Positions 5,298-20,829 of a stretch of DNA of 64,000 bases are shown here, one piece after another (the stretch's first letter is position 1; every line of letters starts with the position of its first letter). This DNA comes from Marinilabilia salmonicolor JCM 21150. GTDB taxonomy: Bacteria; Bacteroidota; Bacteroidia; Bacteroidales; Marinilabiliaceae. The notes under the pieces were generated by a model that saw only the letters and a list, made by a program, of their open reading frames with translations, was not told where the DNA came from and did not search any database. The stretch lies in contig NZ_AJKI01000015.1 in assembly GCF_000259075.1 (NCBI RefSeq), forward strand, positions 1 through 64,000, in the 5' to 3' direction. The translations under genes were made by a program, and so were the position numbers.

Positions 5298-5448
5298 GTG
5301 TTTGTCTATAAAGTCCAACTTCTGCGTTGTTGCTCAAAATCTAAATCCTCAAATACATTAGTATTCTGCGATTTAGATTTTTCACACGCCTTGAATTTGA
5401 ACTTTCTATCTCAAACACGTGAAAAACATTTAGTTTATGGACAGACTC
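5298..5448. mobile_element. MITE-like element, family 1, copy A (151 bp)
   Basis: The element begins GTGTTTGTCTATAAAGT and ends with the inverse of GAGTCTGTCCATAAACT. It is flanked by TATTTA (5292-5297) and CATTTA (5449-5454), a 6-bp target duplication with one mismatch. It is nearly identical over its full length to copy B at 19476-19626, also 151 bp. An internal imperfect palindrome surrounds AAATCTAAATCC / GCGATTTAGATTT. It has no coding capacity for a transposase, so it must be moved in trans. Confidence 0.8.
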
Positions 5449-9119: not shown

Positions 9120-9129
9120 TTTGTATAAA

Positions 9130-9208
9130 CTGTTAGGGGTGCTCCTTAGGGGGGCTGAGAATAAACCCTTTCACCTGATATGTATAATAACAGCGTAGGG
9201 AAACAGGA
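9130..9208 (+). promoter_or_regulatory. TPP (thiamine pyrophosphate) riboswitch
   Basis: The conserved THI-box parts appear in order: AGGGGTGC near 9135, GGCTGAGA near 9152, ACCC and CACCTGAT (9172-9179), and CAGCGTAGGGAAAC (9191-9204). These give the standard sensing-helix arms and the closing P1 stem (TGTTAGG... with ...AACAGG). It lies about 200 bp before thiM. A hairpin with a T run at 9249-9283 is the likely expression platform, so TPP binding should lower transcription of thiM-thiE-thiD-tenA. Confidence 0.93.
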
Positions 9209-9248
9209 ACTCAATGACCATTATTTTTTACAATAATACTTTCCATTG

Positions 9249-12909: not shown

Positions 12910-13086
12910 CCTGTTTTATTCATAAATAATCTATTCCAATGCTCAACTATCGGCAAAATACAAGTATCCTCGTCAAATTTGACTTAAAAAAATAGTCCAC
13001 TATTTCCTGCTTTAAATTTACCTGCGGGTTCGTGTATTTCTTGATATTTGAACATTTCATTACGAAGATTCATGAATAAATCAGAC
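12909..13086. mobile_element. MITE-like element, family 2, copy 1 (178 bp)
   Basis: The ends are imperfect inverted repeats of about 40 bp: ACCTGTTTTATTCATAAAT at the left and the inverse of GTCTGATTTATTCATGAAT at the right. TA flanks both sides (12907-12908 and 13087-13088). Copy 2 at 19629-19804 matches over the whole length. A TA duplication is the mark of IS630/Tc1-mariner-type transposition, so this is probably a non-autonomous relative; no transposase is in the window. Confidence 0.75.
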
Positions 13087-13754: not shown

Positions 13755-13940
13755 GTATCTGTCCATAAAGTCCCATTTGCTGCGTTACTCTTGCCTCCAA
13801 AATGCTCATTTACATGAGTAAACTCCGCTTTTGGCGGTTTCGCAAGCCCCCGATGAAAAATCGGGGCAGGCTTTGCAACTGGAACTTTTTGACCAGACAC
13901 ATGACTACTCAGTCTCAAATCCGACTTTATAAACGGGCAC
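13755..13940. mobile_element. MITE-like element, family 1, copy C (186 bp), between pyrB and pyrI
   Basis: The ends are GTATCTGTCCATAAAGT and the inverse of GTGCCCGTTTATAAAGT. The flanks are TACTTA (13749-13754) and TACATA (13941-13946), a 6-bp duplication with one mismatch. Compared with copy E it carries an extra palindromic insert, CCCGATGAAAAATCGGGG (about 13848-13866), inside the element. Its last base is part of the pyrB stop codon. Confidence 0.8.
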
Positions 13941-14857
13941 TACATAAGTCCCATCACGGCAGCTATCAACGCCATCCGGGCATAAACACCGTTTTTTGCC
14001 TGATCGAAATAATAGGCCTTGGGACTGCTATCCACATCTGTGTGAATTTCATTTACTCTGGGAAGAGGGTGCAATACCCGCATATTATCTTTTGTTCCCT
14101 TAAGCATATTGCGCTTTAGTACATAGGCATTCTTCACCCTTTCGTATTCCATAGGATCAGAAAAACGTTCTTTCTGGACACGGGTCATGTAAATAATATC
14201 AGCTTCATCAATAATCTCCGACAATTCTCCATGCTCATAATAAGGAATTCCGTGTTCTTCAAGAAAAAGCTTGTATTCCCTCGGCATTCTCAATTCTTCA
14301 GGAGAAACAAAATGAAACGTTGGATTGAAGTTGGATAATGCCATCAGTAGTGAATGAACAGTGCGCCCATATTTTAAGTCACCGACCATGAAAATATTCA
14401 AATCATCCAACTTCCCCTGGGTTTGACGAATTGAATACAAATCAAGCATTGTCTGTGTCGGATGTTGATTGGCACCGTCGCCGGCATTGATTACCGGGAC
14501 CAAAGACTGCTCAGAAGCATATCTGGCACTACCTTCGAGCGGATGCCTCATCACAATAAGATCGGCATAACGGCTTACCATCTGGATAGTATCTTTCAGG
14601 CTCTCTCCTTTGGTTGCAGAAGAGGAAGCAGAATCAGAAAACCCCACAACCCGTCCTCCCAGACGGTTAATAGCAGTTTCAAAACTCAATCTTGTACGGG
14701 TTGACGGCTCAAAAAAGAGACTTCCAACCACTTTTCCTTCCAGCAACTTTTGATTAGGATTGACTTCGAATTCTTCAGCAAGATCAAGGATGTGCAAAAT
14801 CTCTTCTTTGCTAAAATCATTGATGGAGACCAGGCTCCGGTTCTTCATCTCAGGCAT
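13940..14857 (-). CDS. pyrB: Aspartate carbamoyltransferase catalytic chain
   Basis: The 305-residue protein has the carbamoyl-phosphate loop [10 protein letters not shown] (residues 51-60), the second phosphate contact SSSATKGES (about 77-85), [10 protein letters not shown] (about 131-140) and LHPLPR near 262-267. It carries out the first committed step of pyrimidine synthesis. The stop TAG is made of TA from a target duplication and G from the first base of MITE-like copy C. Deleting the element with one duplication copy gives TAA at the same codon, so the protein length is unchanged. pyrI follows beyond the element. Confidence 0.95.
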
Positions 14858-18693: not shown

Positions 18694-19218
18694 ATGAACT
18701 GGGAAGAAGAACTGAATATTCTGCTTGAGGAACGGAGCATCTCACAAATTGTCGAATACCTGCTCAGGTCACCTGACGAAATATCACGACTTGTAGGGAT
18801 CACAAAGCACGAGAGTGAAAAAATTGCCTGGCGTGCAGCCTGGGTGTTAGATCATCTGAATATGCAAGCCCCATGTTTAGCAGCACCTTTTTACCCGGAA
18901 TTCTTGCAAATCCTAAAAAAGACGCATTTTAACGGAGTGCGCAGGTCCTTGCTAAAGGTCATAATAACTGCTCCGACGGTAATTAAAGAAGACGGTGAAT
19001 TACTGGATCTTTGTTTCAGGTGGATTGTTTCCCCTGTTATCCCAATTGCTGTCAGAGCTCATTCTATACAATATGTCTATGATTTGTTACCCGAATATCC
19101 GGAATTGGAAAATGAATTTAGACATAGTCTCCGGTCAGCCCTGGATGCCGGGAGTAAAGGAGTAAAAGCCAAGGCTGGAAAGATTTTATCCAGCCTTGAC
19201 AAATCGACACTACGTTAA
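18694..19218 (+). CDS. Small helical-repeat (HEAT-like) protein linked to pcm
   Basis: The 174-residue protein is almost wholly alpha-helical, with paired helices and DEISRLVGITKHESEKIAWRAAWVLDHL (about 31-58), PVIPIAVRAHSIQYVYDLL and KGVKAKAGKILSSL. This is the pattern of a HEAT or ARM repeat fold. I recall similar Bacteroidetes proteins carrying misleading enzyme names, and I see no catalytic motif here. It starts 3 bp after pcm and is probably translated with it. The function is unknown. Confidence 0.7.
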   Translation: MNWEEELNILLEERSISQIVEYLLRSPDEISRLVGITKHESEKIAWRAAWVLDHLNMQAPCLAAPFYPEFLQILKKTHFNGVRRSLLKVIITAPTVIKEDGELLDLCFRWIVSPVIPIAVRAHSIQYVYDLLPEYPELENEFRHSLRSALDAGSKGVKAKAGKILSSLDKSTLR

Positions 19219-19249
19219 ATTCTTCCTAACAACTATTAAAGTGCCATTT

Positions 19250-19359
19250 ACACAATCACAATCACGCAGCTCAACTCTCTGTTTATAAGAGTCTTGCGTT
19301 GCTGGATTTCTGCGTTTAGACTTTTTAAACGCCTCATCGACTGTTGGTAGTCCGTCCGC
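19250..19359. repeat. Possible decayed family 1 element
   Basis: The stretch TATAAGAGTCTTGCGTTGCTG ... TTTAGACTTTTTAAACGCCT follows the order of internal motifs in copies A and B (TATAAAGTC, GCGTTGTTG, TTTAGATTTTT, ACGCCTTGAA) with many changes and deletions. It ends next to the TAAATA target of copy D. This may be an older, degraded copy. Confidence 0.35.
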
Positions 19360-19365
19360 TAAATA

Positions 19366-19469
19366 GAGTCTGTCCATAAAGTACCACTTGCTGCGTAACG
19401 CTTGCCACTGGCACTTTCTGGCCGGACACATGACTTTTTATAAACTTTCCCGACTTTATAGACGGGCAC
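19366..19469. mobile_element. MITE-like element, family 1, copy D (104 bp, internally deleted)
   Basis: The termini are GAGTCTGTCCATAAAGT and the inverse of GTGCCCGTCTATAAAGT. It is flanked by an exact TAAATA duplication (19360-19365 and 19470-19475). The middle, with TTGCCACTGGCACTTTCTGG, corresponds to the outer parts of copies C and E with about 60-80 bp missing. It shares its right TAAATA with copy B. Confidence 0.8.
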
Positions 19470-19475
19470 TAAATA

Positions 19476-19626
19476 GTGTTTGTCTATAAAGTCCAACTTC
19501 TGCGTTGTTGCTCAAAATCTAAATCCTCAAATACATTAGTATTCTGTGGTTTAGATTTTTCACACGCCTTGAATTTGAACGTTCTATCTCAAACACTTGA
19601 AAAACGCTTAGTTTATGGACAGACTC
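19476..19626. mobile_element. MITE-like element, family 1, copy B (151 bp)
   Basis: It has the same length and nearly the same sequence as copy A at 5298. The left target copy is TAAATA (19470-19475). The right target copy is split: TA at 19627-19628 and AATA at 19807-19810, with a family 2 element between. Joining the halves restores TAAATA exactly. Confidence 0.8.
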
Positions 19627-19628
19627 TA

Positions 19629-19804
19629 ACCTGATTAATTCATAAATTATCTATTGCAATGTTCAACTACCTGCTAAATTCAGGTATCCTCAATAAAATT
19701 GACTCGAAAATAGTTCACTATTTCCTTCATCAATTTTCTCTGCGGTTGCCAGAATTTATTGATATTTGAACATCTCATAACGAAGATTCATGAATAAATC
19801 AGGC
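19629..19804. mobile_element. MITE-like element, family 2, copy 2 (176 bp), nested in copy B's target duplication
   Basis: The left end is ACCTGATTAATTCATAAAT and the right end is the inverse of GCCTGATTTATTCATGAAT. TA is present on each side (19627-19628, 19805-19806). It matches copy 1 at 12909 along the whole length. It inserted after copy B, because it splits B's TAAATA. Confidence 0.8.
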
Positions 19805-19810
19805 TAAATA

Positions 19811-19960
19811 GTGTTTCAAATATTTTTCTTTCATTTTTTCTTTCTGCAAGGCAAAATTTTAAAGCATTGCCATAGCTACAGTGCAAAATTTCAACGATGC
19901 AGGGAGGAAAAAGGGAGGTGAAATATGAAATAATATTTTGTGATCGCACTACGAGTGCTG
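19811..19960. other. Residual intergenic DNA before msrA
   Basis: This 150-bp stretch contains the phrase ATAGTGTTTCAAATAT (19808-19823), which also occurs upstream of pyrB (14887-14902). Otherwise I see nothing in it. Confidence 0.3.
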
Positions 19961-20554
19961 CTATTTTAATTTCTGCCGAAATTTCTCCCTGAACTTTTTC
20001 AATTTAGGATTAATAACAACCTGGCAATAAGGTTGATTGGAATTATTTTCAAAATAGTTCTGATGGGATTTTTCTGCGATAAAAAAATCACCGGCCGGAC
20101 TAATTTCCGTTACTACAGGTTTGTCATAAACTTCCTGACGCTTCAGTTCCTCTATAACTTCTTCAGCTTCCTGCTTTTGATGTTCAGAATTGTAAAATAT
20201 TACCGACCGGTATTGTGTACCAACATCGGCCCCCTGCCTGTTCAGTGTTGTGGGGTCGTGTACTGAAAAAAATACAGAAAGTATTTCTTTGTAAGAAATC
20301 ACCCCAGGATCAAAAAAGACCCGAACCACTTCTGCATGTCCGGTAAGCCCGGAACAAACCTTCCGATAAGTGGGATTGGCAATTTTTCCGCCGCTGTAGC
20401 CTGATTCAACTTTAGTAACTCCTTTTAATTCCTCAAAAACAGCTTCAATACACCAGAAACATCCTCCACCTAAAATGGCGGTCTCCTCTTTATTATTTGC
20501 CTGTATCATAATACTTAACTGGATTATCAATGTTAATAAAAATAATTTCTTCAT
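19961..20554 (-). CDS. msrA: Peptide-methionine (S)-S-oxide reductase
   Basis: The 197-residue protein has the catalytic motif GCFWC with the nucleophilic Cys32, the substrate contacts VESGYSGGKIANPTYRKVCSG (about 51-71), GHAEVVRVFFDP, and DVGTQYRSVIF (about 109-119). It repairs oxidised methionine using thioredoxin. The N-terminus (KKLFLLTLIIQLSIMIQAN) is a signal peptide, so this copy acts in the periplasm. There is no fused MsrB domain. Its upstream leader contains MITE-like copy E, 58 bp from the start codon. Confidence 0.93.
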   Translation of the reverse strand: MKKLFLLTLIIQLSIMIQANNKEETAILGGGCFWCIEAVFEELKGVTKVESGYSGGKIANPTYRKVCSGLTGHAEVVRVFFDPGVISYKEILSVFFSVHDPTTLNRQGADVGTQYRSVIFYNSEHQKQEAEEVIEELKRQEVYDKPVVTEISPAGDFFIAEKSHQNYFENNSNQPYCQVVINPKLKKFREKFRQKLK

Positions 20555-20611
20555 TCGTTTTCAATTTTGGGTTATCACAATCCTGATGATTAAAACGTAC
20601 CTCACTACTTA

Positions 20612-20772
20612 GAGTCCGTCTATAAAGTCGGGAAAGTTTACAAAAGTCATGTGTTTTGTCAGAAAGTGACAGTTGCAAGGCTTGCGAAGCCGCCAAAAAC
20701 GGAGTTTACTTGAGTAAATGAGTGTTTTGGCTGCAAGCGTAACGACGCAAATGGTACTTTACGGACAGACAC
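20612..20772. mobile_element. MITE-like element, family 1, copy E (161 bp), between msrA and the YgiQ gene
   Basis: The ends are GAGTCCGTCTATAAAGT and the inverse of GTGTCTGTCCGTAAAGT, with a perfect 6-bp duplication TACTTA (20606-20611, 20773-20778). Read on the other strand it aligns with copy C nearly end to end. It occupies most of the gap between two divergent genes and so sits in both promoter regions. Confidence 0.85.
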
Positions 20773-20829
20773 TACTTAAACTAAAAAAGATAGCAGTTGG
20801 TTCAAAGCAATAAACCAGATCAAAACCTA

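Follow-up and report, generated by a model that had tools for sequence, protein, structure and literature searches.

Two MITEs of one family, elements D and B, stand side by side in a 64,000-nt stretch of Marinilabilia salmonicolor JCM 21150 DNA (the window) with a single TAAATA word in common, and the right target duplication of B is split by a MITE of a second family. We put the probability at roughly 70% that this arrangement arose because family 1 remakes its preferred target whenever it inserts and stacks end to end for that reason, after which family 2 landed last, in a duplication of B. Copies, boundaries, target words, a flank bias, an excess of junctions, and one nearby empty site were all observed directly and are presented below. 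These data define the exact ends and the target rules of two MITE families that are abundant in Marinilabilia and its relatives, link both to likely parental IS families, and offer a simple sequence-level reason, with a testable number, for the end-to-end stacking of bacterial MITEs.

Reading of positions 18900 to 20300 revealed TAAATA at 19360 to 19365 and again at 19470 to 19475, TA at 19627 to 19628, and AATA at 19807 to 19810. The first TAAATA is the left target duplication of family 1; it is preceded by C (19359), indicating that the original site was C-TAAATA-G. Element D, a 104-bp deletion form, follows at 19366 to 19469 (plus strand), then the TAAATA common to D and B (19470 to 19475), which is one of 24 such junctions counted genome-wide, and then the 151-bp element B (19476 to 19626, plus strand). 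The right TAAATA of B is divided into TAA (19627 to 19629) and ATA (19808 to 19810, followed by G at 19811). The 174-bp family-2 MITE occupies 19630 to 19803 (plus strand), has the terminal inverted repeats (TIRs) CCTGATTAATTCATAAATTAT and CCTGATTTATTCATGAATCTT, alike at 17 of 21 positions, and is bordered by CTAA at 19626 to 19629 and at 19804 to 19807. Since the C of the left CTAA is the last base of B, family 2 arrived after B. No reading frame of at least 90 amino acids is present in 19366 to 19803, and the site of the three elements has no Rfam match at the gathering threshold; the only match in the window is a TPP riboswitch at 9125 to 9218 (plus strand; RF00059, 70.2 bits). The six bases after the last TAAATA, GTGTTT at 19811 to 19816, are identical to the first six of B, either by chance or as an old remnant.

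D and B carry common TIRs (16/17 between the left end of D and the right end of B), and the repeat finder paired the left end of D with the right end of B and the right end of D with the left end of B. D and B are neighbors with one common TAAATA and are not nested. The initial annotation of this locus, which reported TAAATA at both positions and a right target of B cut by another element, was borne out by our reading, and its proposal of two MITE families that follow different target rules and inserted separately is supported by the copies and target words described below. It also claimed three nested insertions whose order could be read throughout. Nesting applies to family 2 only, which indeed came last, later than B, but the order of D and B is unreadable from the window because the two are symmetric around their common TAAATA. 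The family-2 boundaries given there, 19629 and 19804, contained one-base errors.

A 15-base TIR pattern, searched with at most one mismatch, had 221 matches (112 + 109) in the 4.98-Mb host genome (G000; 72 contigs) versus 0 + 1 for the reversed control, and D and B thus belong to a large dispersed family. The D/B region itself yielded at least 65 matches there from the 40 first-look candidates scored out of 327, and the number of family-1 elements in the host was estimated, by ratio, at 149 to 172. A listing of TIR ends regardless of their flanks showed elements that begin with G(A/T)G and finish with C(A/T)C or variants thereof, mostly with TANNTA on either side. In the sampled DNA, which amounts to 382 kb including the window and was partly picked by similarity to D and B, 103 elements were called; their duplications were identical in 57 cases and differed at one position in 20, at two in 12, and at more in 14. 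TANNTA stood on both sides of 65 of the 103, a share that is descriptive and not an independent count, since TA in the duplications enters both the scoring and the filtering of the caller. The common lengths were 151 bp (32 elements, the B type) and 162 to 163 bp (23 elements, the D type). B-type copies have a mean pairwise identity of 94.4% (32 copies, that of the window included), and the 104-bp form of D recurs on contigs C53 and C24. Further copies in the window are a B copy at 5298 to 5448 (plus strand; TATTTA/CATTTA) and D-type copies at 13755 to 13940 (plus strand; TACTTA/TACATA) and 20612 to 20772 (minus strand; TACTTA/TACTTA). With lengths of 104, 151, and 174 bp at the D/B site, TIRs, target duplications, many copies, and no transposase gene, the elements of both families are MITEs.

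Family 1 duplicates TANNTA and prefers C and G alongside it (C-TANNTA-G). For non-tandem elements with good duplications, 120 flanks were scored; the base beside TANNTA, read outward, was C at 64 of them, T at 35, A at 15, and G at 6, compared with C at 219 of 2038 flanks for the background of 1019 TANNTA sites outside called elements. Among 37 single insertions with exact duplications, 8 had the two-sided octamer CTANNTAG, 24 had one side of it, and 5 had neither, and the two-sided form was present at only 9 of the 1019 background sites. The C/G flank does not figure in the filter criteria of the element caller. In loci of Marinilabilia relatives, C occupied 21 of 36 such flanks; in genus g13 the bias was not seen, with C at 2 of 8 flanks, a very small sample, though a genome of that genus (G016) tops the junction counts given below. 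With G as the first and C as the last base of the elements, every insertion supplies the preferred inner base at both of its duplications.

We propose that D and B are both non-autonomous MITEs belonging to a single transposition system, whose palindromic AT-rich target would preferably be C-TANNTA-G with the central six bases duplicated. The G at the element start and the C at its end would complete the element-facing side of the preferred octamer at both duplications, such that each landing would create sites several times better than the average TANNTA. Since landings would make better sites, later copies would enter these duplications and come to abut resident ones across a single TANNTA, of which D-TAAATA-B would be an example. 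If each of about 150 copies has two duplications and the outer flanks carry C at the observed rate of 64 in 120, the family would provide some 160 optimal octamers, versus 124 estimated elsewhere in the genome. We lean slightly toward a broader reading as well, in which family 1 is a target-regenerating transposon that completes the palindrome CTANNTAG with its terminal G and C and spreads autocatalytically, its octamers being reused by family 1 and occasionally by an unrelated family.

Junctions were counted with a pattern of element end, TANNTA, and element start, allowing up to three mismatches and this spacing alone. The host genome contains 24 of them, G004 (M. salmonicolor MSL42) 33, G016 77, G031 9, G001 3, G002 2, G003 1, and G040 0, and the control patterns gave 0. 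We then compared the count in the host with a simulation that took as input the flank bias of the non-tandem copies, with the number of background TANNTA sites estimated at 13,992, and that assumed independent flank effects, zero copy loss, and a rough copy number. With the measured bias, it produced 11.0, 19.5 (standard deviation, 3.9), and 32.5 junctions for 110, 150, and 200 elements, and without the bias it produced 0.9, 1.6, and 2.8. The 24 junctions counted fall between the with-bias predictions for 150 and 200 elements, and the flank bias is probably the cause of stacking.

Multimers of MITEs, like those of family 1, have been described in rice (Jiang and Wessler 2001; cited by PMC10664404) and in pithovirus arrays, in which adjacent M1 and M2 elements have the target dinucleotide in common (PMC10664404). 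Family 1 differs from these in having a 6-bp word and a bacterial host and in showing a flank bias whose measured strength predicts stacking. Another parallel is IS30, for which sections of PMC9333248 describe resident copies as preferred targets, as we propose for family 1, with insertion into hot spots or beside the element's own inverted repeats. Stacking could accordingly reflect targeting of the inverted repeats by a protein, instead of the remade target sequence, but we regard this as unlikely. The junctions counted hold a TANNTA-like word between the ends, a spacing that the search pattern itself requires, and the bias at unoccupied sites alone predicts roughly the number observed. The IS30 model in those sections involves junctions between inverted repeats with 2 bp between them (PMC9333248), whereas in family 1 the duplication itself would be the target.

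Different occupancy states of one family-1 site could be compared among congeners. The gene beside the D/B site (19961 to 20554), which we take to be msrA-like, was located in all four congeners examined (G001 to G004), but the intergenic flanks at 19360 had no alignment in these genomes at an E value of 1e-5 save for matches to the elements. The empty site carrying a single TAAATA, for which the initial annotation had called, was hence not recovered at 19360; its counterpart was found at the neighboring copy (20612 to 20772). At that site (20606 to 20778), G003 has a single TACTTA and no element, the host has TACTTA-D-TACTTA, and G004 has two copies, a D type and a B, separated and followed by TACTTA and with TACTTC as the left word. 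In this one case, the alignment of G003 reaches the site on the right but comes only within some 40 bases of it on the left, with 35 bases between the aligned flanks versus the 39 expected from the window minus the element and one TACTTA. The D copies of the host and G004 are in opposite orientations and 74% alike and may therefore represent independent landings in one site.

These states bear on whether unequal recombination, or slippage during replication, between TIRs or duplications could have produced the tandems. In favor of such a process, like elements do occur as same-direction pairs spaced about 168 bp apart, as at C56:66962/67130 and several times in G016 and G031. Nevertheless, the empty, D, and D-plus-B states at the msrA-adjacent site differ by whole elements, and of the 15 tandem junctions that were called in the sample, 10 join a 151-bp B to another type, in both orientations; we consider this origin improbable for the tandems overall, although it may apply to direct pairs of the same type.

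The words at the 15 called junctions also speak to how D and B came together. In six, all three words are equal (TAAATA on C53 and at C44:9810, TAGTTA on C51, TAAGTA at C56:35169 and on C8, and TACTTA at C2:453956); in seven, including the junction in the window, the inner word agrees with one of the outer words; and in two (C10:223808 and C31:10256), it equals neither. D-TAAATA-B might instead be a composite that was moved or copied as one unit. C53 has the same order of the 104-bp D and B, at 90% identity over 265 bases and with TAAATA three times, and passages of PMC10664404 present the pithovirus M1 and M2 repeats as mostly moving jointly. A moving block would retain its old inner word, yet where the words are intact, as in six tandems, the inner one matches both outer words and changes by locus among TAAATA, TAGTTA, TAAGTA, and TACTTA. 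Furthermore, the B of the window is 95.4% identical to that of C53, which ranks only joint tenth of 31, nine other copies being closer. Joint movement thus appears very unlikely, and the locus-specific inner words indicate that D and B are separate insertions into an existing duplication. Duplication of the whole region, which the initial annotation had named as the outcome that would overturn its separate insertions, is likewise opposed by 13 of the 15 tandems, whose inner word equals at least one outer word and varies by locus.

A search of the host genome with family 2 gave at least 41 matches (40 of 137 first-look candidates scored) at 30 loci, and both ends were found at 20 of these. The sampled DNA contains 24 two-ended candidates, 3 of them evidently spurious (11 to 12 mismatches). 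Four identical bases border CCTG...CAGG on both sides in 12 of the 24, the other half having unequal words, and the exact duplications are TTAG (7), ATAG (2), CTAA (1), TTAC (1), and TTAA (1). The target duplication of family 2 is therefore 4 bp, NTAN, and most often TTAG, and the earlier assignment of TA flanks does not stand, the word here being CTAA. Insertion into a bare TA, suggested by the middle two bases being TA nearly always, is scarcely credible, given that the outer bases also match between sides in those 12 of 24 candidates and vary by locus (TTAG, ATAG, TTAC, CTAA, and TTAA) and that an IS1380 relative carries CTAA on both sides. Another copy in the window lies at 12910 to 13085 (plus strand) with TTAA and CTAA flanks. 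Under our proposal, the octamer remade by family 1 contains CTAN and NTAG and would fit the 4-bp target of the unrelated, IS1380-type family 2, a copy of which would have landed last, in the right duplication of B. Among the 24 two-ended candidates, that of the window is the only one touching a called family-1 element; two more cases against a family-1 duplication are C7:61592, whose right end was not found, and one at a contig end in G016 (L132).

The transposases that moved the two families were sought in related genomes. The ISDol1-like group of the ISNCY family makes duplications of 6 to 7 bp. Transposase remnants of ISNCY/IS5 type lie beside a family-1 TIR and TANNTA in G058, G016, and G040, and no complete element having both ends was seen. 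On a G058 contig, an N-terminal transposase part (NF033593, ISNCY; 107.7 bits, below the whole-protein cutoff of 325) starts about 105 bp inward of a family-1 TIR that is perfect and borders on TATTTA. C-terminal remnants on G016:C34 and G040:C159 (19.0 and 42 bits) end about 215 bp inward of a TIR accompanied by TAAATA, distances here being by eye, and a remnant on G040:C42, with a TIR and TATGTA nearby, scores better as IS5_1 than as ISNCY. All of these are fragments from other genera with one end each, under the curated cutoffs, and the host genome has no match of NF033593 or NF033578 (ISNCY and IS5_1). Family 1 was probably moved by an ISNCY/IS5-type transposase supplied from elsewhere or since lost. 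When plasmids were searched with the transposase part of G058, 131 records matched, all below 60% identity; the 20 matches listed, from Sinorhizobium, Rhizobium, and Microvirga, had 28.8 to 31.2% identity.

For family 2, a 1704-bp element of G004:C12 has a match of 459.7 bits to PF13701, which we take to stand for IS1380, with two stops reported within the match. It has CCTG... ends and CTAA duplications on both sides as in family 2, each end being 16/21 like that of family 2 in this one element, and it carries a transposase gene whereas family 2 is gene-free. An IS1380 transposase probably moved family 2. The only IS1380 match in the host scores 19.3 bits, below the cutoff of 34.7, and both families look like orphans there, or their parents have been lost from the assembly.

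Other parents were considered. IS256 resembles family 1 in the TIR core CTGTCCATAAA, but its sole copy has the ends AACTCTGTCCA, and a TANNTA duplication was not seen by eye at this one broken copy. The copy (L127; G000:C10:53216-54292) is the only place in the host found to match PF00872. IS701 has a YTAR-like target and was considered for family 2 on that ground; it was set aside because IS1380 fitted. A 1.2-kb stretch between TAAGTA words on G016:C5, taken as a candidate autonomous element, has no transposase-like frame by eye.

Both families are of a known kind. MITECca01 (IS982) of Cardinium and RUP, BOX, and SPRITE of pneumococcus are likewise short, non-coding, and present in high copy number with IS-like TIRs, as described in parts of PMC9769881 and PMC3049150, respectively. 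The Marinilabilia families differ from these in their likely parents, ISNCY/IS5-like and IS1380 elements whose transposases are not over threshold in the host, and in the end-to-end sharing of one duplication by family 1. No title or abstract opening that we found describes family 1 or 2, and none joins Marinilabilia with MITE or IS1380 with MITE and Bacteroidetes. We regard them as new MITE families of a known kind of element, the added point being that remaking of the octamer would suffice to cause stacking.

Beyond the host, the longer TIR pattern is held by 11 of the 61 genomes searched, and a match to B by 10 of the 61. The exact pattern of the B ends was found in 20 stretches, in which the host's own record is possibly left out, and the named records among them are from Marinilabilia only (M. 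salmonicolor MSL42, 14; M. rubra, 4; MAG Soudan_9, 2). In genus g13, G016 has 380 matches to the longer end pattern, and both G016 and G031 contain same-direction pairs 168 to 169 bp apart (e.g., G016:C6:28246/28414 and C92:5/173). Two unusual copies were noticed in the host: an apparent chimera (L056; G000:C11:199642-199832), in which the right end of B is joined to the last 40 bp of the D type and the outer end of D is used, and a B copy apparently inside a D copy (L061; G000:C2:299267-299480), near a TACTTA in the end of D itself, which would represent true nesting.
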